Shown here piece by piece: positions 52,486-64,000 of a stretch of 64,000 bases of DNA. Positions within the stretch are counted from its first letter, which is position 1. Each line of letters starts with the position of its first letter. This stretch comes from Microtetraspora niveoalba (lineage in GTDB: Bacteria; Actinomycetota; Actinomycetes; Streptosporangiales; Streptosporangiaceae), in contig NZ_BBYM01000005.1 in the NCBI RefSeq assembly GCF_001570405.1, positions 186,001 through 250,000 on the forward strand, read 5' to 3'. Under the pieces are notes generated by a model. It searched no databases. It was given only the letters and a program-made list of their open reading frames with translations, and was not told where the DNA came from. The position numbers and the translations under genes are program-made.

Positions 52486-52686
52486 TCGCGCTTTTCCCCA
52501 TTACTTCACATAACATCCTTCTCTTGGGCAAATACAGACAGTATCTAGGCATATACCAAGAGTTGTGATGACATGGTGGTCGCTCCGCCTAGCCCTGCGC
52601 CAGGCGCGCTAGGTGGACCCTGGCCGAGACAGCAAGCCGACCGGCGAAGTGCCGAGTCGTGGTGGACCTGAGCAGGAAGGGCGACA
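52486..52686 (+). promoter_or_regulatory. AT-rich promoter region of the PKS gene
   Basis: About 200 bp with no gene. The first 80 bp (52490-52570) are among the most AT-rich of the window and likely carry the promoter, though no clear -35/-10 pair could be fixed. The PKS start TTG 52687 is preceded by AGGAAGGG with 6 nt spacing. No regulator gene adjoins. Confidence 0.45.
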
Positions 52687-55600
52687 TTGAGCGCGGACGA
52701 CCCGACAGCAGAGCAGGCATGGCCGGAGCACGCGGCGGCGGTGGTGGGCGTGGGATGCCGCCTGCCCGGTGGGATCGTGAACCTGGACGGGCTCTGGCAG
52801 GCGTTGCGGCAGGGCGCCGATCTCGTCGGCGAGATCCCGCCGACCAGGTTCGAGGCCGATCGGTTCGTGGACGACACCATGCCGAGGCTGAACAGGAGTT
52901 ACACCCGGGCCGGAGGCTTCCTCGACGAGGACATCACCGCCTTCGACGCCGCCTACTTCGGCATCTCCCCCAAAGAGGCCGCCTCGATGGACCCGCAGCA
53001 GCGGTTGCTCCTGGAGATGGCGGTCGAGGCCCTGGACGACGCGGGCATCGATCCGGCGGCGCTGGCAGGCACGGACACCGGAGTGTTCGTCGGCATCTCG
53101 GATCCCGCGTACGGCACGATGCAGGCGTTGGAGCCGGGCGGCATGGGCCCGTACTCGATGTCGGGGGGGACCCTGTCCATCGCGGCCAACCGGCTGTCGC
53201 ACTTCTTCGACCTGCGCGGGCCGAGCATGAGCATCGACACCGCGTGCTCCTCGTCGTTGACGGCCGTGGAGCGGGCCTGGCGGTCCCTCGCGGAGGGATC
53301 CAGCCGGGTGGTGCTGGCCGGCGGGGTCAACCTGCTGATCAGCCCGGGCCCCTTCATCGGTTTCAGCCAGGCGTCGATGTTGTCGCCGACCGGCCGGTGC
53401 CGGGCGTTCTCCGCCGACGCCGACGGGTTCGTACGCGCGGAGGGCGGCGGTGTGGTGGTGCTCAAGCGCCTGGCCGACGCGATCGCCGACGGGGACCGCA
53501 TCCACGGCGTCATCGTCGGCGCCGCCGCCAACAACGACGGCCACACCATGGGGCTGGCGTTGCCGAACGCCGAAGCGCAGGAAGCCCTGTTACGGCAGGT
53601 GTACACCACGGCGGGCATCAGCCCCGACGAGATCGTGTACGTGGAGGCGCACGGCACCGGCACCCAGGCCGGGGATCCGGCCGAATGCCAGGCGCTGGGG
53701 CGGGCGCTGGGCAGCCGGCGCACGCGCGGAGTCCTGCCCATCGGCTCGGTGAAGTCCAACGTGGGGCACCTGGAGCCGGCCTCCGGCATGCCGGGACTGT
53801 TCAAGGCCCTGCTGGTACTCCGGCACCGGATGATCCCGCCCTCGTTGCACGCCGCCACGCTCAACCCCCGGATCGACTTCGACGCCCTGGGGCTGAGCGT
53901 CACCAGCGAGCCGCGACCGCTCGACGACGCGGGAGAGCGGCCCGTGGCCGGAGTCAACTCCTTCGGGTTCGGGGGTGCCAACGCCCATGTGGCGCTGACC
54001 CCACCGCCCGCCCCCAGGGCGGCCGGGAACGAGGCGGCGGCACCCCCCGCAGGAGCGCTGCCCGTCGTCGTGTCCGCGCGCAACAGGTCCGCGCTGCGGG
54101 AAGCCGTGGAACGGACCGCCGCGCACCTGGCGTCACTCGACGAACGGGATTTCTACGACGTGGCCTACACCGCGACCCGGCGGCGCGGCGGCCACCGGCA
54201 TCGAGCCGTGGTGCTGGCCGATACCGCCGCCGCGGCGGCGCGGGCGCTGGCGAGTCTCGCGGACACGCCGGAGCCGACCGGCCCCGCCGGCGAGTCCGAT
54301 GCGGGCGGACGGCTCGGAGCCGGGGACGCGGCGGTGGCGGAGTCGGAGACGGTGGAGCACGGGCGGGTGGCGTTCGTGTTCTCCGGAAACGGTTCGCAGT
54401 GGGCCGGGATGGGCGCCGATCTGCTGTCCGACGAGACCTTCCGCTCGGCCGTGGAAGCGGTCGACGCCGAACTGTCCGACCGGCTCGGCTGGTCGGTCCT
54501 CAAGGAACTGTCCCTGCCCGCCGACCAGTCGCGGCTCTCGGCGACCGAAGTGGCGCAGCCGTTGTTGTTCGCCGTCCAGGTCGGCCTGGTGGAGATGTTG
54601 AAGGCGGCGGGCGTACGGCCGGGAGCGGTGCTCGGCCACAGCGTGGGCGAGGTCGCCGCCGCGTACACCGCCGGCGCTCTGTCACTGGCCCAGGCGGCGC
54701 AGGTGATCTCCGAGCGCGGCACGGCGCAGTCGGTCACCCGGGGGCGGGGCCGGATGGCCGCGCTCGGGCTGGCCGAGACCGCGGCCAGGCAGATCCTGGC
54801 CGACTACCCGGGGCTGGAGGTCGCGGCGGTCAATTCCGACCGCGACGTCACGATCGCCGGACCGGCCGAATCGTTGAAGTCACTGGGTGAGGACCTCTCC
54901 TCGCGCGAGATCTTCTTCCGCGAGCTGGACCTGGACTACGCCTTCCACAGCGGCGCCATGGATCCGGTGCGGCAACCCCTGGCCGAGGGACTCGCCGGGC
55001 TGCGGCCCCGCCCGGCGCACATCCCCCTGCTGTCCACGGTGACGGGCGACCTGGTCCGGGGACCGGAGCTGGACGCGTCGTACTGGTGGCGGAACGTCCG
55101 AGAGCCGGTGCGGTTCGCCGCGGCGGTCGAGCGGGTGCTCGGCGACGGCTTCGACGTGCTGCTGGAGATCGGCCCGCATCCGGTGCTGCGCTCGTACCTG
55201 CGCCGCGTGAGCGGCACCGCGAGGGTACGCGCGGCCGTCGTGACCACCTTGCGCCGGGACGAGCCGGGCCCGGCGCGCGTCCGCTCCGCGGTCGCCGAGC
55301 TCGTCGCCGCCGGTGCGCGGCTCGACTGGGATCGGTACTTCCCCCGCCCCGGCGCGGTGCGATCGCTGCCGGCCTACCCCTGGCAGCGCGAACGGCACTG
55401 GATCGGGGGCCCGCACACCTGGGTGCAGACCGACATCGACACGACGATCCGGCATCCGCTGCTGGGACAGCGGATGCCGGTGCTGGACCCCACCTGGCAG
55501 GGCGAGATCGACCGCGTACGGGTGCCCTGGGTGGCCGACCACCGGGCCGGCGGCGCCGCCGTCATGCCGGCCACCGGATACGTGGAGATGGCCATCGCCG

Positions 55601-58600
55601 CCGCCCGGCTGACCGTACCGGACGCCGTCGAGGCGGTGGAGGTGGACAGGGTCGACATCAGCCGGGCCATGGTGGTGCCGTCACAGACCGCCGCCGATCC
55701 GGTGTACGTGCAGACGTCGCTCTGCGCCGAGACCGGGGTGGTCACCGTGGCCAGTGCCGGCCGGCAGGCGGAGCAGCCCCGCGAGCACTTCCGGGCCCGG
55801 GTACGGCCGCTGCTGCGCCGGACCCCGCCGCCGCTGGACGTGGTCGCGCTGCGCGCTCGCATCGGCACGCGCGTGGACGTGCCCGGCTACTACGCACGGG
55901 CCGCCGAAGGACACATGGTGTGGGGGCCGGAGTTCCAGGTCCTGACCGAGCTGTGGACGGGCGATCGGGAGGTGCTCGGCGCCTACTCGTGTCCGGAGCA
56001 GGCGCAGGGGCGCTACCAGATGCATCCGGTGGTGCTGGACAGCGCGCTGCAGGCCGGCGTGCTGTGGCTGGTGGAGTCGCTGCGATCGGGCCGCGGCTAC
56101 ATGCCCGCCGCGATCGGCTCCGTCCGCCTGTGGGGAACGCCCGCGGCACAGGGACTGGTGCACGTACGGGAACGTTCCAGCAGTGCCGAGGAGGTCTGCT
56201 GGGACATCGTGGTCGCCGACGACGACGGCCGGATCGCCGCCGAAGTGGAGGGCTGCCGGCTGCGCCGGATGCCCGGCGTCCACATCACCCCGGTCACCCG
56301 TTACGAGATGGCGCTGCGGGCCGCGCCCCGGGCCGGCACGCCCGCCGAGCCGTGGCCGGCCCCCCGCCCCGGGCAGATCCTGTCCGGCGCGGTCGAGCAG
56401 ATCGACCGGCTGCGCTCGGCCTGGCACGAGCTGGACTATCCGCGGTACGCGGCACGGCTCGAAGAGGTCTTCGCCCACACGCTGGCCGGCGCGCTCGGCG
56501 AGCTGGCCGCCGAGCGGTCGATCGGCGTCGAGGAACTGATCGAGGCGTGCCCGGGGGCGCACCACCGGCGGATGATCCATGCGGCCCTGCCGCTGCTGGA
56601 ACGGCACGGACTGCTGGAGCGGCCGGTCGGGGGCGGCCCCCGCCTGACGCCGATGGATGCGGACCCGCGCGAGCTGCACCGTGAGCTCCTCATCCGGGGA
56701 GCCGCCTTCACCGCCCAGAGCGCCCTGACCGTACGGGTCGGCCGGTGGCTGCCCGAACTGCTCGCGGGCCGGCGTGCCGGCTCCGACGTCCTTGGCTCCG
56801 GTGGCGGTCATGAGCTGTTGCGGCAGTTCCACGACATAGGGCCGGTCAACCTGTTCACCAACCGGATCGCCCGGGCGCTCGTCGAGCAGATCGTCCGGCG
56901 ATGGCCGTCCGACCGGCCGCTGCGCGTCCTGGAAGTCGGTGCGGGGGCGGGCGGCACCACCGCCATGCTGCTGCCCGTCCTTCCCGCCGACCGCACCCGC
57001 TACCTGGTCACCGACGGCGCCGAGGCGGCGCTGACCCGGCTGCGGCATCGCTTCGCCGGCTTCGACTTCGTCGATTACGCCGTCCTCGACATGGACGCCG
57101 GTCCGGCCGAGCGGGGACCGAACGCGGGCGGATTCGACTTCCTCGATTACGCCGTCCTCGACATGGACGCCGACCCGGTCGAGCAGGGACTCGCCGCGGG
57201 CGGATTCGATCTCGTGGTCGCGGCGAACAGCCTGCACCTGGCCCGTGACCTGCCCGCCGCGCTGCGCCACCTGTCCACCCTCCTCGTTCCCGGCGGCCAG
57301 TTGCTCATCACCGAACCGCACCGGGTGGGGACCCTGCTGCCGATCCTCGGCATGCAGGAGGAGTTCTGGGACTTCACCGACCGGCACCTGCGCCCGCGCT
57401 CGCCGCTGCTGCCCCGGGAAAGATGGCCGGAGGTGCTGGCGGAGGCCGGGTACACCGAGGTCGTCCAGACCGGCGACGACGACGAGCTCACGGCCGGCGA
57501 CTTCTCGGTGATGCTGGCCACCGCCGGGGGCGCTCCGGCCACCGCGCACCCCGTACCGGAGCCCGTACCGGACGCCACCGGCACGTGGATCCTCGCCGGT
57601 GAGGACGGCACCGACGCGCTGACCGCCGAGCTGCGGGCGCTGCTCCGGACCCGTGGCGGCGACGTGATCCACTCGCCGCTCAGCGACGATCCCGACCACT
57701 GGACCGCGCACGTCCCGCCCACCGCCCAGACGGTCACCATCGCGGTCATCCTGGGCGGAGCGGAGGACACGGACCCGAAGGCGACCGTCGAGCGGATCAC
57801 CCGGCGGGCCGCGGCGCTGCGGGCCATCGCGCTGGCCTGCGAGCAACTGCCCGAGCACGTCGCGACCGCGGTGTGGCTGGTGGCCCGCCCCTGCGCCGCG
57901 CTGCCCGAACCCCGCCTCACCGACGTACGGCTCCACCCCGAGGACGCGGCGACCTGGGGGACGACGCGCTCGCTGAGCAACGAGCAGCCGGGGCTGGCGA
58001 TACGCCGGCTCTGCCTGCACCCCACCGGCGACGCCGCACAGGACGCCGGCCGCCTGGCGGCGGAACTGCTCGCCCCGGGAGAGGAGGACGAGATCCTGCT
58101 CACCCGCCGAGGACGTTTCGTGCCGCGGCTGCTGGAGTCAGGCGAGCACGCCCTGGGCCTGCCCGTCGGCTCGGGCGGCGCCTACCGGCTCAAGGTGTGC
58201 GACCCCGGGCTGTCGTACACGCTGGCCTGGGAGGAGTTCCCGATGCCGCGGCCAGAGCCCGACGAGGTCGTGGTCGAGGTACGGGCGATCGGGCTGAACT
58301 ACCGCGACGTGATGCGCGCGCTGAACCTGCTGCCCACCGAGGCCGTCGAAGCGGTCTTCGGCGGGCACGAACTGGGCCTGGAATGCGCCGGGATCGTCAC
58401 CGCCGTCGGCGCCGCCGTCACCGGGACGCGGCCCGGTGACCGGATCATGGCCGCGGGACCCGTCGGATTCGCCAGTCACGCGAGGATCAAGGCGTGGGCG
58501 GCCGTCCCCCTCCCCGAGGGGATGACCTTCACCGAAGCCGCCACCATGCCGATGGCGTTCTCCACCGCGCACCATTCGCTGGGGTACTGCGCGCGTGTCA

Positions 58601-60318
58601 AGGCGGGTGAGACGATCCTGGTCCACGGCGGCGCCGGCGGGGTCGGCCTGGCCGCGCTGCAGTACGCACGGCTCCACGGAGCCCGCGTGATCGCGACCGC
58701 CGGCACCGCCGCCAAACGCGACCTGCTGCTCGCGATGGGAGCCGACCACGTCCTGGACTCGCGCAGCCTGCACTTCGCCGAGCAGGTCAAGGAACTGACC
58801 GGCGGCCAGGGAGTGGACGTCGTGCTCAACTCGCTGGCCGGTGAGGCCGTCAACCGCGGTGTGGAATGTCTGCGGCACGGCGGCCGGTTCGTCGAGCTCG
58901 GCAAACGGGACATCTACCAGAACAGGTCCCTGCTGCTGCGCCCGTTCTCCGACAACATCGCGTTCTACGGCGTGGACGTGGGCACTCTCATGTGGAAGGC
59001 GCCCGAGCTGATGGCCGACAGCACGTCGCAGGCCGCGCCCCTCTACCGCTCCGGGCGGTTCCGGCCGCTGCCGCACACGGTGTATCCGGCCGCCCGCGTC
59101 GCCGACGCCTTCGCCACGATGCGCCATTCCCGGCACATCGGAAAACTCGTGGTGTCCTTCGACCCGCGCGACGAACCGGTCACCGTCCGGCCCCAGCAGA
59201 TGGCGCCGCGTCTGGACCCGGAGGGGACCTACCTGGTCACGGGCGGCCTGGGCGGGTTCGGTGCGGCGACGGCTCGCCGCCTCGCCCGTCGGGGTGCCCG
59301 CCACCTGGCCCTGGTCGGCCGCCGGGGCGCCGAGGCGCCCGAAGCTCCCGCTCTGCTGGAGGAACTGGAGAGATCGGGGGTGGAGGTCCGCGCGTACGCG
59401 GCCGACGTGGCCGACCCCGACGCCATGCGGGGGATCCTGCACGACCTGGACGCCTGCGGCCACCCGCTGCGCGGCGTCGTACACGCGGCCATGCACCTCG
59501 ACGACGGCCCGCTCGCCGACCTCGGCGACGACCGGATCCGAGCCGTCCTGCACCCCAAGGTCGCCGGCGCGATGGTGCTGGACGAACTGACCCGGGATCG
59601 CCCCCTCGACCTGTTCGTCATGTACTCCTCCCTCACCACCGTCGGCAACATCGGTCAGACGTCGTACGTCGCCGCGAACCTGTTCCTGGAGGCGCTGGCC
59701 CGGCGGCGGAGCCGGCAGGGCCTGCCCGGACTGACGGCCTGCCTGGGCGCGCTCGCGGAGACCGGGGTACTGACCCGAGGCAGGCAGGGAGAGGCGCTGG
59801 CCAAGGCCGGGATCCCGCCGATGTCTCCCGCCCGGGCGCTGGACGCCGTGGAGGCCATGCTCGGCGAGCACGCCGACGTCGCCATGGTGGGCCGCTGCGA
59901 CTGGGGCCGGTTGCGGCAGGTCCTGCCCAGCCTGCAGCGTCCGTGGTTGTCCCTGGTGCTGCCGCCCGGCACGGAGCAGCAGGGGCTCGACCAGCTGTCG
60001 CTGCTGGCGGAGATGAACCAGGAGCAGAAGTACGCGTACATCACCGAGCAGATCACCCGGTTGTTGTCCACCGTCCTGCTCATCCCGGCCGACCAGATCG
60101 CCGACGACCGGCGGCTGGACGAGTACGGACTGGACTCCCTGATGGCCACCGAACTGCTGACCTCCATCCGCAGCCAGTTCGGCATCGACATCCCGCCCAT
60201 GGAGCTGATGCGCGGCGGCGGCACCGTCGCCGACATCGCGCACAGCGTGCTCATCCGCCTCGGGCTGCGCGAACCGCAACCCGCCGGTGCGAGCCCCCGT
60301 ACCGGAGAGCCGGCCTGA
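52687..60318 (+). CDS. Reducing type I polyketide synthase, KS-AT-DH-MT-ER-KR-ACP
   Basis: A 2543-residue single-module PKS beginning at TTG 52687. The KS (about 15-440) has DTACSSSL (Cys187), HGTGT (His322) and NVGHL (His361). The AT (560-880) has GHSVGE (Ser652) and YAFHS (from Tyr751), closer to the HAFH of malonyl-specific domains than to YASH. The DH (915-1200) has DHRAGGAAVMP (His952) and DSALQAG. The MT (1330-1610) has LEVGAGAGGTT and an internal duplication. A KR structural part follows, then the ER (1830-2160, LVHGGAGGVGLAALQ), the KR (2170-2400, TGGLGGFG, YSSL, SYVAAN) and the ACP (DEYGLDSL, Ser2484). There is no thioesterase and no docking tail. The full reductive set with MT in one module resembles iterative highly reducing PKSs. 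The product is probably a methylated, fully or partly reduced chain, passed to the next gene. Confidence 0.95.
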   Translation: MSADDPTAEQAWPEHAAAVVGVGCRLPGGIVNLDGLWQALRQGADLVGEIPPTRFEADRFVDDTMPRLNRSYTRAGGFLDEDITAFDAAYFGISPKEAASMDPQQRLLLEMAVEALDDAGIDPAALAGTDTGVFVGISDPAYGTMQALEPGGMGPYSMSGGTLSIAANRLSHFFDLRGPSMSIDTACSSSLTAVERAWRSLAEGSSRVVLAGGVNLLISPGPFIGFSQASMLSPTGRCRAFSADADGFVRAEGGGVVVLKRLADAIADGDRIHGVIVGAAANNDGHTMGLALPNAEAQEALLRQVYTTAGISPDEIVYVEAHGTGTQAGDPAECQALGRALGSRRTRGVLPIGSVKSNVGHLEPASGMPGLFKALLVLRHRMIPPSLHAATLNPRIDFDALGLSVTSEPRPLDDAGERPVAGVNSFGFGGANAHVALTPPPAPRAAGNEAAAPPAGALPVVVSARNRSALREAVERTAAHLASLDERDFYDVAYTATRRRGGHRHRAVVLADTAAAAARALASLADTPEPTGPAGESDAGGRLGAGDAAVAESETVEHGRVAFVFSGNGSQWAGMGADLLSDETFRSAVEAVDAELSDRLGWSVLKELSLPADQSRLSATEVAQPLLFAVQVGLVEMLKAAGVRPGAVLGHSVGEVAAAYTAGALSLAQAAQVISERGTAQSVTRGRGRMAALGLAETAARQILADYPGLEVAAVNSDRDVTIAGPAESLKSLGEDLSSREIFFRELDLDYAFHSGAMDPVRQPLAEGLAGLRPRPAHIPLLSTVTGDLVRGPELDASYWWRNVREPVRFAAAVERVLGDGFDVLLEIGPHPVLRSYLRRVSGTARVRAAVVTTLRRDEPGPARVRSAVAELVAAGARLDWDRYFPRPGAVRSLPAYPWQRERHWIGGPHTWVQTDIDTTIRHPLLGQRMPVLDPTWQGEIDRVRVPWVADHRAGGAAVMPATGYVEMAIAAARLTVPDAVEAVEVDRVDISRAMVVPSQTAADPVYVQTSLCAETGVVTVASAGRQAEQPREHFRARVRPLLRRTPPPLDVVALRARIGTRVDVPGYYARAAEGHMVWGPEFQVLTELWTGDREVLGAYSCPEQAQGRYQMHPVVLDSALQAGVLWLVESLRSGRGYMPAAIGSVRLWGTPAAQGLVHVRERSSSAEEVCWDIVVADDDGRIAAEVEGCRLRRMPGVHITPVTRYEMALRAAPRAGTPAEPWPAPRPGQILSGAVEQIDRLRSAWHELDYPRYAARLEEVFAHTLAGALGELAAERSIGVEELIEACPGAHHRRMIHAALPLLERHGLLERPVGGGPRLTPMDADPRELHRELLIRGAAFTAQSALTVRVGRWLPELLAGRRAGSDVLGSGGGHELLRQFHDIGPVNLFTNRIARALVEQIVRRWPSDRPLRVLEVGAGAGGTTAMLLPVLPADRTRYLVTDGAEAALTRLRHRFAGFDFVDYAVLDMDAGPAERGPNAGGFDFLDYAVLDMDADPVEQGLAAGGFDLVVAANSLHLARDLPAALRHLSTLLVPGGQLLITEPHRVGTLLPILGMQEEFWDFTDRHLRPRSPLLPRERWPEVLAEAGYTEVVQTGDDDELTAGDFSVMLATAGGAPATAHPVPEPVPDATGTWILAGEDGTDALTAELRALLRTRGGDVIHSPLSDDPDHWTAHVPPTAQTVTIAVILGGAEDTDPKATVERITRRAAALRAIALACEQLPEHVATAVWLVARPCAALPEPRLTDVRLHPEDAATWGTTRSLSNEQPGLAIRRLCLHPTGDAAQDAGRLAAELLAPGEEDEILLTRRGRFVPRLLESGEHALGLPVGSGGAYRLKVCDPGLSYTLAWEEFPMPRPEPDEVVVEVRAIGLNYRDVMRALNLLPTEAVEAVFGGHELGLECAGIVTAVGAAVTGTRPGDRIMAAGPVGFASHARIKAWAAVPLPEGMTFTEAATMPMAFSTAHHSLGYCARVKAGETILVHGGAGGVGLAALQYARLHGARVIATAGTAAKRDLLLAMGADHVLDSRSLHFAEQVKELTGGQGVDVVLNSLAGEAVNRGVECLRHGGRFVELGKRDIYQNRSLLLRPFSDNIAFYGVDVGTLMWKAPELMADSTSQAAPLYRSGRFRPLPHTVYPAARVADAFATMRHSRHIGKLVVSFDPRDEPVTVRPQQMAPRLDPEGTYLVTGGLGGFGAATARRLARRGARHLALVGRRGAEAPEAPALLEELERSGVEVRAYAADVADPDAMRGILHDLDACGHPLRGVVHAAMHLDDGPLADLGDDRIRAVLHPKVAGAMVLDELTRDRPLDLFVMYSSLTTVGNIGQTSYVAANLFLEALARRRSRQGLPGLTACLGALAETGVLTRGRQGEALAKAGIPPMSPARALDAVEAMLGEHADVAMVGRCDWGRLRQVLPSLQRPWLSLVLPPGTEQQGLDQLSLLAEMNQEQKYAYITEQITRLLSTVLLIPADQIADDRRLDEYGLDSLMATELLTSIRSQFGIDIPPMELMRGGGTVADIAHSVLIRLGLREPQPAGASPRTGEPA
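57058..57201 (+). repeat. 24-residue tandem duplication inside the PKS methyltransferase domain
   Basis: Two 72-bp units (57058-57129 and 57130-57201) encode GFDFVDYAVLDMDAGPAERG with PNAG, and GFDFLDYAVLDMDADPVEQG with LAAG. A third GFD follows at 57202. Normal methyltransferases have this segment once, between the SAM motif and the acidic strand. The reading frame is kept. Confidence 0.9.
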
Positions 60319-60327
60319 ACCAGCGAC

Positions 60328-60344
60328 GGACGCGGCCCGCGTCC
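60328..60344 (+). other. Short GC hairpin after the PKS stop
   Basis: GGACGCG-GCC-CGCGTCC has seven perfect base pairs, 9 bp after the PKS stop. It lacks a U-tract and may only weaken transcription into the genes downstream. Confidence 0.4.
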
Positions 60345-60412
60345 GCGGCACCGTCCGCGGTCACGGGCCCCTTCCGTCCGCCCTCCCGACCGCCGGCCGT
60401 CCAGGCCCGGCG

Positions 60413-60540
60413 CAGAAGACCGGCCCAGAAGACCGGCCCAGAAGACCGGCCCAGAAGACCGGCCCAGAAGACCGGCCCAGAAGACCGGCCCAGAAGACCG
60501 GCCCAGAAGACCGGCCCAGAAGACCGGCACAGAAGAGAGG
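60413..60540 (+). repeat. Nine-copy 13-bp tandem repeat before the OleA-like gene
   Basis: The unit CAGAAGACCGGCC runs head to tail from 60413; eight copies are identical and the ninth ends in A. A tenth, partial copy, CAGAAGAGAGG (60530-60540), supplies the GAGAGG ribosome site of the gene starting at TTG 60547. The array lies in the 228-bp gap between PKS and OleA-like genes, the largest gap in the locus. Its 13-bp step does not keep a reading frame. Confidence 0.95.
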
Positions 60541-60546
60541 TCTGCG

Positions 60547-61566
60547 TTGACCCAGCTGCACGCGCGGATGACCGGGGTGGCCGCCCACCTGCCGGAGACC
60601 ACGCTGAGTACGGCTGAGCTGGAAGACCGGCTCGCCGACCGCAACCCCGCCCTGGACCTGCCCCGAGGGCTGATCCACGACCACAGCGGAGTCCGGCGAC
60701 GGCACATCGCCCTCCCCCACGAGAAACCGTCCGACCTGGCGGCGCACGCCGCCCGCCGGGTCCTGGAGGACAACGGCCTACAGGCCGCCGACCTCGATCT
60801 GCTCATCTACGCGGGAGTGTCGTCCGACACCGTGGAGCCGGCCACCGGACACGTCGTCGCCGCCAAGATCGGGGCCTGCTGTCCGGTGTTCGACGTACGC
60901 AACGCCTGCAACAGCGTGCTGAACGCCATCCAGGTGGCCGACGCGCTGATCTCCGGCGGCCGTCATCGGCGGGTCCTCATCTGCTGCGGAGAGTTGCCGA
61001 CCGCGGGCACACCGTGGACCGTGGCCAGCGCGGAGGAGTACATCACCGTCGCCGCGTCCTACACGGTCTCCGACGCCGGCGCCGCGTTGCTGCTGGAGGC
61101 CGGCACCGAACCGGGGGTGCTCGCCCACCGGTTCTCCGCGTACTCCGCGGGATGGCCGGCGGCGGTCTCCGCGGTGGACAACCTCACCACCGACCCGTGG
61201 GCGGGCCGGCCCACCATCGGGCCGCTCATCGTCGACTCCGCACAGTTGGTGCGCGGCATCGAGAACATCGACTACGCCGTCTTCCACAAACCCCTCGCCG
61301 ATCTCGGGCTGACCTGGGACGACTTCGCGGCCGTCTGCGTACACCAGGCATCGCTGGCGACGTTGTGGTGGTTCTGCGACCAGGTGCGCATACCGCAGGG
61401 CAAGGTCGTCGTCACCATCGCCCAGCACGGCAACCTCGTCGCGGCGACGCTGCTCGTGCAACTGGCGCGGGTGGTCGGCTCGGGACGGGTGCGGCGCGGC
61501 GACCTGATCGCCCTGGTCGGCCTGGCCAGCGGGGCCAGTGCCGGAATCGTCGTCGTGCGGTGGTGA
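60547..61566 (+). CDS. oleA-like: OleA-like thiolase-fold condensing enzyme (KAS III superfamily)
   Basis: A 339-residue condensing enzyme from TTG 60547. The triad is complete: Cys121 in DVRNACNSV, His266 in CVHQAS and Asn296 in QHGNLVAAT. It belongs with FabH/OleA proteins. OleA joins two fatty acyl-CoAs head to head to give a 2-alkyl-3-keto acid. FabH would instead extend a chain by malonyl-ACP. The OleA role is favoured by the following OleC-like and OleD-like genes, not by the sequence alone. The partner acyl group could come from the PKS carrier directly, because the PKS has no thioesterase. It ends 4 nt before the next start. Confidence 0.82.
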   Translation: MTQLHARMTGVAAHLPETTLSTAELEDRLADRNPALDLPRGLIHDHSGVRRRHIALPHEKPSDLAAHAARRVLEDNGLQAADLDLLIYAGVSSDTVEPATGHVVAAKIGACCPVFDVRNACNSVLNAIQVADALISGGRHRRVLICCGELPTAGTPWTVASAEEYITVAASYTVSDAGAALLLEAGTEPGVLAHRFSAYSAGWPAAVSAVDNLTTDPWAGRPTIGPLIVDSAQLVRGIENIDYAVFHKPLADLGLTWDDFAAVCVHQASLATLWWFCDQVRIPQGKVVVTIAQHGNLVAATLLVQLARVVGSGRVRRGDLIALVGLASGASAGIVVVRW

Positions 61567-61570
61567 TCCG

Positions 61571-63271
61571 GTGACCACACAGGAGACCCCTCCGAGCGAC
61601 TCCGGCCCGGCCGAGCCGGCCGCCGAGCTGATCCTCCGCGCCGAGCGCTGGTTTCGCGAGCAGCCCGACGTGATCGCCTGCCAGGTCGGTGGCCGCACCC
61701 CGTCGGCCACCACCTACGGGCAGATGTCGCGGGCGGTGGACCGTACCGTCGCGGCCCTCGCCAGGGCCGGGATCCGCCCGGGCATGCGTACCGGCCTGCT
61801 GGTACCGCCGGGTCCGGAACTGGGCGCGCTGGCCGTCGCCCTGGTACGGCTCCGCGCGGTGCCGGTGCTGGTCGATCCCGGGCTGCCGCTCGGCGCGATC
61901 AAGCGCTGTCTGCGCCAGGCGGCGCCCGAGGCCTTCATCGCGATTCCCGCCGTGCAGGTGGCCAGGAGGCTGCTGGGCTGGACCCCTGACGTCCGTGTGT
62001 CCATCACCGTCCCCTCGCGGCGACCCCTCGGCCCGACATGGCCGTCAGGCGGACCCGGACGCGGCCTTCCGCCCGGCGAGCCGGGCCGCGGCTTCGATCC
62101 CGGCGAGCCGGGACGGTGGCCCTCCGCCGGCCCCGACGACGTGGCGCTGATCGCCTACACCTCGGGATCCACCGGCCCGCCCAAGGGCGTGCCGCTGCGT
62201 CACCGGCACCTGGCCGCGCAGCTCAACCTGCTGGGCGCGCTGGGCACGGTGGAACCGGGAACGCCGGTGTTGTCGACGTTCGCGCCGTTCGCCCTGGGAG
62301 CGGCGGCGTTCGGGGCGACCGTGGTGATCCCGGACATGGACCCGCGGCATCCGGTGCGGACCGACCCGGCCGCCCTGGTCGCCGACATCCAGCGGTATCG
62401 CGTGGCCGGGATGTTCGCCGCTCCCGCGCTGCTGGACCGGCTCGCGCGTCACTGCGCCGCCCATGACCTGGTACTGGACACGCTGGGCGACGTGGTGTCC
62501 GCCGGGGCGCCGCTGCCGATGCCGGTGATGGACCGCCTGCGCGGCTGCCTGCGCGACGACGCGCGGGTGCTGTCGGTGTACGGAGCCACCGAATGCATGC
62601 CGGTGGCCGCGATCGAGAGCCGCCTGCTCGCCGAGCACGCCGCGGCCACCGCCGCCGGGGCGGGCACCTGCCTGGGTCCTCCGCTCCCGGGCGCCGAGGT
62701 GCGCGTCATCGCCCTCAGCGACGACCCCATCGAGCGGTGGAGCGAGGACCTGGTCGTGCCGGCCGGCACCATCGGGGAGATCACCGTGGCCGCCCCCACC
62801 GTCAGCGACCCCTACCTGGACGATCCGGAGGCCACCGCGCTGGCCCGGATCGGCGACGGGGACCGCGTCTGGCACCGGATGGGTGACGTCGGCCGGTTCG
62901 ACGAGCAGGGAAGGCTCTGGTTCGCCGGACGCAAATCAGAACGGGTCCGCACCGTCGGCGGTGACCTGTACACCGACCAGGTCGAACCCGTCTTCGCCAC
63001 CGTGCCGGGGGTCCGCCGCACCGCACTGGTCGGTGTCGGTCCCGCCGGCGCGCAGCGTGCGGTCCTGGTCGTGGAGTGCGAATCGGGATCCCGGGACAAC
63101 GCTCGCGTGAAGGCCGACATCCTGGACGTGGCGGCCCGCCATCCACACACCGCCGAGCTTCGGGAGGTGCTGTTCCACCCCGGGTTCCCGGTCGACGCCC
63201 GGCACAACAGCAAGATCCGCCGGCACGAGCTCGCCCTGTGGGCCTCGCGGCGCGTCCGGGCGGGCCGATGA
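61571..63271 (+). CDS. oleC-like: OleC-like beta-lactone synthetase (AMP-dependent ligase family)
   Basis: A 566-residue ANL-family enzyme. It has the P-loop IAYTSGSTGPPKGVPL (about residue 195), the A5-type motif VYGATECMPVAAIES (about 337, the OleC hallmark being YGATE-x-LPVA) and the A7/A8 segment WHRMGDVGRFDEQGRLWFAGRKSERV. The closing Lys is in ARHNSKIRRHEL. OleC adenylates 2-alkyl-3-hydroxy acids and closes them to beta-lactones. An inserted loop (residues 158-184) carries repeated GEPGR words. GTG 61571 lies 4 nt after the OleA-like stop, and the stop overlaps the OleD-like start (ATGA). Confidence 0.85.
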   Translation: MTTQETPPSDSGPAEPAAELILRAERWFREQPDVIACQVGGRTPSATTYGQMSRAVDRTVAALARAGIRPGMRTGLLVPPGPELGALAVALVRLRAVPVLVDPGLPLGAIKRCLRQAAPEAFIAIPAVQVARRLLGWTPDVRVSITVPSRRPLGPTWPSGGPGRGLPPGEPGRGFDPGEPGRWPSAGPDDVALIAYTSGSTGPPKGVPLRHRHLAAQLNLLGALGTVEPGTPVLSTFAPFALGAAAFGATVVIPDMDPRHPVRTDPAALVADIQRYRVAGMFAAPALLDRLARHCAAHDLVLDTLGDVVSAGAPLPMPVMDRLRGCLRDDARVLSVYGATECMPVAAIESRLLAEHAAATAAGAGTCLGPPLPGAEVRVIALSDDPIERWSEDLVVPAGTIGEITVAAPTVSDPYLDDPEATALARIGDGDRVWHRMGDVGRFDEQGRLWFAGRKSERVRTVGGDLYTDQVEPVFATVPGVRRTALVGVGPAGAQRAVLVVECESGSRDNARVKADILDVAARHPHTAELREVLFHPGFPVDARHNSKIRRHELALWASRRVRAGR

Positions 63272-64000
63272 CGAGGGTCCTGGTGACCGGGGGCGGCGGC
63301 TTCCTGGGAGAGGCCGTCTGCCGGCGGCTGGCCGCCCGCGGTGACACCGTGCACGCTCTTCAGCGCCGCCACAGCCCCGCGCTGGCGGCTCTCGGGGTCA
63401 CCCAGCACCTCGCCGACGTCCGCGACCGCGCGGCGGTGCTGGCCGCCGTCGCCGGATGCGGGGCGGTCGTGCACTGCGCCGCGAAGGCCGGCGTACACGG
63501 ACGGGACCGGGACTACGAGGAGATCAACGTGTCAGGAACGCGGAACGTGCTGGACGCCTGCGCGTACCACGGGGCACGCCTGGTCCACACGTCCTCGCCG
63601 AGCGTCGTCCACGACGGACGGGACCTGGAGGGAGTGGACGAGTCCGTGCCCTACGGCCGCCGTTTTCCCGCCGCCTATCCGCGGACCAAGGCCGAAGCGG
63701 AACGGCTCGTACTCGCCGGCGCCGCGGCCGGGCGGGTGACGGCGGTCGCGTTGCGTCCGCATCTCATCTGGGGGCCGGGAGATCCGCACTTCCTGCCCAG
63801 GCTGGTGGCCCACCGCCGCCTGCTGTGGCTGCTGGGCGAGACCGACAAGACCGTCGACACCGTCTACATCGACAACGCTGCCGACGCCCACCTGCTCGCT
63901 CTCGACCGGTTACGTCCCGGCTCACCGCCGGCCGGGCGGGCCTACTTCATCACCCAGGGCCAGCCCTGCGGTTTCGGGGAATGGCTCAACCTGCTGCTGC
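63268..64000 (+). CDS. oleD-like: OleD-like 2-alkyl-3-ketoacid reductase, 5' part (cut by window edge)
   Basis: 244 codons of an extended short-chain dehydrogenase are visible. It has the NAD(P) motif VTGGGGFLG at residues 6-14, the SSPSVVHDGRDLEGVDES segment, the Tyr-Lys pair in YPRTKAEAE and ALRPHLIWGPGDPHFLPRL. These blocks are very close to OleD, which reduces 2-alkyl-3-keto acids to the 3-hydroxy acids used by OleC. The C-terminal substrate part continues beyond 64000. Its start overlaps the OleC-like stop, so OleA, OleC and OleD-like genes form one coupled series. Confidence 0.88.
   Translation, partial: MTRVLVTGGGGFLGEAVCRRLAARGDTVHALQRRHSPALAALGVTQHLADVRDRAAVLAAVAGCGAVVHCAAKAGVHGRDRDYEEINVSGTRNVLDACAYHGARLVHTSSPSVVHDGRDLEGVDESVPYGRRFPAAYPRTKAEAERLVLAGAAAGRVTAVALRPHLIWGPGDPHFLPRLVAHRRLLWLLGETDKTVDTVYIDNAADAHLLALDRLRPGSPPAGRAYFITQGQPCGFGEWLNLLL

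Follow-up and report, generated by a model that had tools for sequence, protein, structure and literature searches.

The closest described relative of the locus analysed here is the Pfa-OleABCD system for the 31:9 polyunsaturated hydrocarbon of Shewanella and Geobacter, in which a type I iterative synthase feeds a KAS III enzyme, followed by OleD, OleC and OleB. According to the available part of a Shewanella co-expression study, OleA links the Pfa synthase to the hydrocarbon in vivo and a 31:8 ketone is formed with OleA alone; action of OleA on the Pfa ACPs is the authors' proposal (PMC6463001). An older survey, in the part available, reports co-occurrence of pfa-like and ole genes in 44 out of 80 genomes (PMC3098273). 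The oleACD clusters of lipstatin and nocardiolactone, compared here by description, likewise include KAS III, OleC-like and OleD-like enzymes. In the open-access literature, we found no description of a methylating, non-Pfa polyketide synthase (PKS) joined to ole genes.

Such genes are found together in Microtetraspora niveoalba (genome of 8.47 Mb in 98 contigs), as a five-gene unit on the + strand with the order PKS-oleA-oleC-oleD-oleB. The unit crosses the end of the window, that is, of the whole stretch of 64,000 nucleotides analysed (G000:C5:186001-250000), and the contig extends 20 kb beyond that end. The features of the unit are:

52490..52686, + strand: upstream conserved stretch, defined by DNA match to G102 and five other loci
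52687..60318, + strand: type I PKS, KS-AT-DH-MT-ER-KR-ACP, 2543 aa, without TE (Pfam)
57057..57209, + strand: tandem duplication of 72 bp (24 aa) within the PKS, in its MT region
60407..60536, + strand: 13-bp x 10 tandem repeat in the PKS/KAS III intergenic region
60547..61566, + strand: OleA-like KAS III, 339 aa, with E97-P98, C121, H266 and N296
61571..63271 (alternative start 61538), + strand: OleC-like beta-lactone synthetase (NCBIfam, tree, motifs)
63268..64000, + strand: OleD-like 2-alkyl-3-oxoalkanoate reductase; the gene continues past the window to window-equivalent 64260
window-equivalent 64257-65189 (L009:14257-15189; G000:C5:250257-251189), + strand: OleB-like beta-lactone decarboxylase, wholly past the window

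Pfam and NCBIfam confirm the gene content described by the sequence-only reading, namely, a one-module KS-AT-DH-MT-ER-KR-ACP synthase without a thioesterase followed by OleA-, OleC- and OleD-like genes. The 4-nt gap it gave after the OleA stop, which ends at 61566, is correct if OleC starts at GTG 61571 (start 61538 would overlap with OleA), and so is the ATGA overlap of the OleD start (ATG 63268) with the OleC stop. OleB had been reported as not seen, which holds within the window to 64000, but the gene begins with a GTG 257 nt beyond the window end, in a GTGA overlap with oleD; its absence was thus an edge effect of where the window stops. A search of 54 kb around the unit (L009, L010 and L011) gave no second match to PKS, KAS III, OleC, OleD or OleB. 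The unit differs from the lipstatin and nocardiolactone clusters in having oleB, an adjoining PKS and, in the searched stretches of the contig, a single KAS III match in place of the lipstatin pair.

On balance, we consider it probable that the five genes form a dedicated polyketide-to-olefin unit, in which a PKS chain is released by a non-decarboxylative KAS III reaction and converted by OleD, OleC and OleB into an internal olefin. This reading is based on observed gene content, gene order, conservation, catalytic motifs, selection and tree placement. The single-module PKS would work iteratively, with malonyl extension, methylation and reduction, and the methyl-branched acyl chain would remain on its ACP. 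KAS III would take the chain on Cys121, with Glu97 as the base, and condense it with a second acyl thioester in a non-decarboxylative Claisen reaction, which would be the release step. OleD would then reduce the beta-keto acid, OleC would close the beta-lactone and OleB would remove CO2, yielding the internal olefin. Because, among other points, a thioesterase is absent, this route from the ACP-bound polyketide through Claisen release to OleD, OleC and OleB is the simplest reading. Iteration, extender unit, chain length, second substrate, direct hand-over from the ACP and product are what we infer, the likely product being an unusual branched hydrocarbon.

The PKS reading frame has a TTG start, and its Pfam domains follow in the order KS, AT, DH, methyltransferase, zinc ER, KR and PP-binding, with no thioesterase domain among the Pfam matches. 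This is the single-module architecture of iterative highly reducing PKSs, and the lone module suggests iterative use. Catalytic motif residues of KS, AT, DH, MT, ER, KR and ACP are kept in all 12 aligned PKS proteins, an alignment from which G191, G006 and Nonomuraea were left out. The AT motif is YAFH, YPFH or HPFH among the aligned proteins, which we take to fit malonyl rather than methylmalonyl use, and the KR has LDD. The nearest PDB chain is mycocerosic acid synthase (961 bits; LovB, 603 bits), also a stand-alone module. The methyl branches made by mycocerosic acid synthase come from methylmalonyl-CoA; unlike that enzyme, the M. niveoalba PKS has an extra C-methyltransferase and is accompanied by Ole genes. 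Nor is it a Pfa-type synthase, scoring 319 bits against the PfaA model TIGR02813 (cut-off 1010.1). The 24-aa duplication in the MT region is found only in M. niveoalba, being absent in all 11 relatives in the alignment; it may or may not harm methylation, and we count it against the proposed pathway. A downstream modular PKS for which these genes would only make a starter, a possibility raised by the sequence-only reading, did not appear: tblastn (E<=1e-3) gave no further match to this PKS either downstream, in the 20 kb by which the contig continues beyond the window, or upstream, in 20 kb of L011.

KAS III is the divergent member of the set, with 27% identity to OleA of Xanthomonas/Stenotrophomonas (loci L070, L072, L079 and L128), as against 45-50% for OleB, OleC and OleD. 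Its Glu97 (residue numbers were counted by hand) aligns with Glu117 of Xanthomonas OleA, and the available part of a published survey gives Glu117-Pro for all but two of its OleA proteins (PMC7064751). The OleA catalytic set, E97-P98, C121, H266 and N296, is present in 20 out of 20 rows of the KAS III lineage, including the 14 that belong to the PKS unit, and Glu-Pro, Cys, His and Asn in all 35 canonical OleA rows; the catalytic Glu occurs in none of 17 FabH-group rows. KAS III as FabH was rejected, since it scores 110.6 bits against the FabH model TIGR00747 (cut-off 292.1) and the genome has a separate FabH (338.4 bits) on contig C25.

In phylogenetic analysis, the KAS III lineage forms a clade (100/99) apart from both canonical OleA and FabH, placed beside FabH with support of 87/84 in the first tree and 98/81 in the second. 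The first tree had 65 rows: 13 of the 75 collected were left out (11 judged fragments or other thiolase-type proteins and two OleA lacking the N-terminus) and three Lst-type rows were added. For the second tree, of 73 rows, five of these 65 were dropped (two Lst-type rows without Cys and three long or odd rows) and 13 of 25 gathered FabH sequences were used. The AU test rejected neither the joining of the lineage to canonical OleA (p 0.14 in the first tree, 0.448 in the second) nor that of OleA with FabH (p 0.559, scoring slightly above the best tree found). A profile of the lineage alone gives two FabH structures 180 and 175 bits and OleA 157; one mixing in canonical OleA rows favours OleA by construction and was not used as evidence. 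The deep position of the lineage leans weakly to the FabH side, and this lean, in profile scores and in the 98/81 support, is counted against the proposed pathway. The phylogenetic check proposed in the sequence-only reading thus has a mixed outcome: KAS III is not FabH, but the trees do not make it an orthologue of canonical OleA either. By comparison, the KAS III proteins of two Geobacteraceae loci (L071 and L076) lie inside the canonical OleA clade. What is new relative to the Pfa-Ole precedent is a methylating PKS of non-Pfa type together with a divergent KAS III. We regard it as possible, and put forward tentatively, that KAS III represents an independent third OleA-type line in which Glu was gained (or kept) on a FabH-like background, off-loading a methylating iterative PKS, so that methyl-branched polyketide olefins of a class not yet described would be made across one actinomycete family. 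The divergent KAS III makes repeated evolution of the OleA glutamate a testable question.

A sister lineage of this KAS III (41-45% identity) is found in three family genomes (L194 9580-14954, L195 and L196) beside a ligase and an SDR, with no OleB match, and these are candidate beta-lactone type sets. In L194, the only one searched for domains, genes for a glycosyltransferase and a P450 are interspersed. The available part of PMC7064751 describes OleA, a glycosyltransferase, OleC, P450 and OleD, without oleB, in Actinoplanes atraurantiacus, whose OleA is active on a p-nitrophenyl ester and has 29% identity to Xanthomonas OleA. Going by that description, L194 has the same domain kinds, with a sister-lineage KAS III (42%); both it and A. 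atraurantiacus differ from the five-gene unit in the absence of oleB, for L194 within its stretch.

OleC, OleD and OleB are closer to their canonical counterparts. The best NCBIfam model for OleC is olefin beta-lactone synthetase (554 bits, below the equivalog cut-off of 900), its score against PRK09274 is 531 bits (over the cut-off of 478), and in the tree (90 of 93 rows, quick search without bootstrap) it groups with Ole loci of other phyla, apart from lipstatin-like sets; these three lines assign it to the OleC of the OleABCD olefin pathway. Within the stretches fetched, 42 of the 61 Ole loci of other phyla have an OleB match. OleD best matches NF042422 (362 bits, cut-off 580) and has the SDR motifs of a reductase. 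That OleC and OleD score below curated equivalog cut-offs is counted against the proposed pathway. OleB is a 310-aa alpha/beta hydrolase with HGNPSW, HDWGG and AGHYLLED, and has both the nucleophile Asp (in HDWGG) and the His. The motifs HDWGG, HGNPS/TW and AGH are present in all 14 unit members, and the catalytic letters in most of the 37 other OleB rows aligned. In the tree (all 59 rows, collected with length limits; quick search without bootstrap), unit members lie beside Lysobacteraceae/Xanthomonas OleB, inside the OleB clade. The NCBIfam matches of OleB include no OleB model; haloalkane dehalogenase families rank first among them, with scores under their cut-offs. OleB is akin to haloalkane dehalogenases; their rank as its best families is counted against the proposed pathway.

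The order PKS-A-C-D-B is found in 13 family genomes, M. niveoalba and 12 others (G031, G090, G094, G102, G106, G109, G121, G142, G154, G161, G191 and G216; in G102 and G191 the PKS spans two fetched stretches), and because it recurs in those 12 the arrangement is not due to chance. Among the named-genome matches listed, Nonomuraea sp. SBT364 has the same order on a contig that ends within the PKS; its KAS III falls inside the clade of the family's KAS III. G006 has KAS III and the PKS N-terminus on one contig and the PKS C-terminus with B-D-C on another, and the genes are presumably adjacent there too. An OleC match at E<=1e-50 was obtained in 23 out of 200 family genomes, including M. niveoalba, at E<=1e-90 in none of a phylum-wide sample of 197 other genomes, and at E<=1e-30 in none of three same-genus genomes; the last result is counted against the proposed pathway. 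OleB (E<=1e-60) is found in 16 of the 200 genomes, the same as the OleC E<=1e-158 set except G220; of the 17 genomes with this OleC lineage, as delimited by a cut drawn after the scores were seen, 16 thus have oleB.

Two genomes depart from this pattern and are likewise counted against the proposed pathway. G220 (L059) has an OleC inside the lineage with neither OleB nor OleD beside it, and in G179 the genes A, C, D and B stand next to a KS of FabF type, this PKS being absent from ~20 kb on either side; a KS-AT match of 38% is found some 8 kb downstream. Among the matches listed, Allokutzneria sp. A3M-2-11 (L067 5938-21671) has the same Ole lineage beside a PfaA-type synthase (1226 bits, cut-off 1010). 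Judged from these gene neighbourhoods, Allokutzneria and G179 are consistent with an exchangeable acyl-supplying synthase. Stand-alone KS genes also occur beside OleC-OleD-OleB in L060 5734-13090, L058 and L023 (genus g4), the KS being FabF-type by NCBIfam in L060 and by similarity in the other two; L023 further has two genes that, judged by eye, are ACP-like and MMPL-like. In Streptomyces morookaense (L104 3055-9757), among the matches listed, a related PKS end (52%) is found with OleC, OleD and two OleB-like genes.

All five genes look to be under purifying selection, with dN/dS of 0.19-0.39 in all 15 gene comparisons with three relatives (Nei-Gojobori); OleB has the lowest value of the five in two of three pairs, and the lowest or second-lowest overall. 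DNA common with G102 (93.7-95.2%) runs from 52496 to 65193, that is, from 191 nt upstream of the PKS to 4 nt past the oleB stop codon. No further match was found in the stretches compared, and the five genes thus behave as one unit. In genomes of genus g86 (G090, G121, G142, G161 and G216), some further downstream DNA is also common, so block sharing is no proof of recent transfer. The G102 match begins with 93.7% identity, those of five other loci begin at 52489-52503, and no match was found farther upstream in the stretches fetched; a promoter probably lies within 52490..52686.

The sequence-only reading had favoured a beta-lactone as the end product, which would now imply that OleB is inactive or slow and that a polyketide beta-lactone accumulates. 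OleC and OleD are indeed present, and, as stated in the available part of PMC7064751, beta-lactones are the products of actinobacterial oleACD sets that lack oleB. However, this view does not sit well with an oleB that directly follows and overlaps oleD, has intact motifs and low dN/dS, and is kept with the OleC lineage in nearly all genomes. The lipstatin-like sets of the same family, L062 7190-12203 and L063 7156-12128, each comprise a tandem KAS III pair (the second without catalytic Cys), OleC and OleD with no close OleB, and fall outside the OleC clade, although the OleB-less OleC of G220 does fall inside; we consider a beta-lactone end product quite unlikely. The same can be said of KAS III as a starter enzyme that primes the PKS as FabH does, with OleC, OleD and OleB acting on something else: its profile scores and tree position lean to FabH, but it has the OleA-type Glu-Pro lacking Glu counterparts in the FabH group, it scores below the FabH cut-off in a genome with its own FabH, and the unit has no other KAS III to feed OleD.

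It is also unlikely that ordinary fatty acyl-CoAs are what the Ole enzymes condense, their genes merely co-travelling with a PKS whose product is separate. Xanthomonas OleA does use fatty acyl-CoA, according to the available part of PMC7064751, and the Ole set of G179 lacks this PKS nearby; against this stand the adjacency in 13 family genomes, a common DNA block that ends at oleB, a PKS without a thioesterase, and a KAS III that is divergent while OleB, OleC and OleD stay close to canonical. A linked PKS/Ole unit with KAS III as the likely release catalyst, as first suggested from the window, is upheld by the conserved order, the OleA-type Glu-Pro and the missing thioesterase. If the polyketide-to-olefin pathway is correct, head-to-head hydrocarbon biosynthesis would draw not only on fatty acids and Pfa chains but also on a methylating PKS. 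The unit would then provide a thioesterase-free PKS release mechanism and, in a compact set of five genes, a source of branched hydrocarbons.

Several neighbouring elements were rejected as parts of the unit: a downstream acyl-ACP desaturase is present at one of 16 loci, downstream two-component genes (response regulator and kinase, 31-53% identity) at two of 16, and the upstream XRE regulator and RlmG gene at none of 16. A consensus terminator scan found no terminator after oleB and did not uphold a terminator-like hairpin seen there by eye. Between the PKS and KAS III genes, the 13-bp repeat has 10 copies with 98% match, and the gap is 228 nt in M. niveoalba. Among 13 relatives, it measures 280 nt in G216 and 12-140 nt in the other 12 (tblastn ends).
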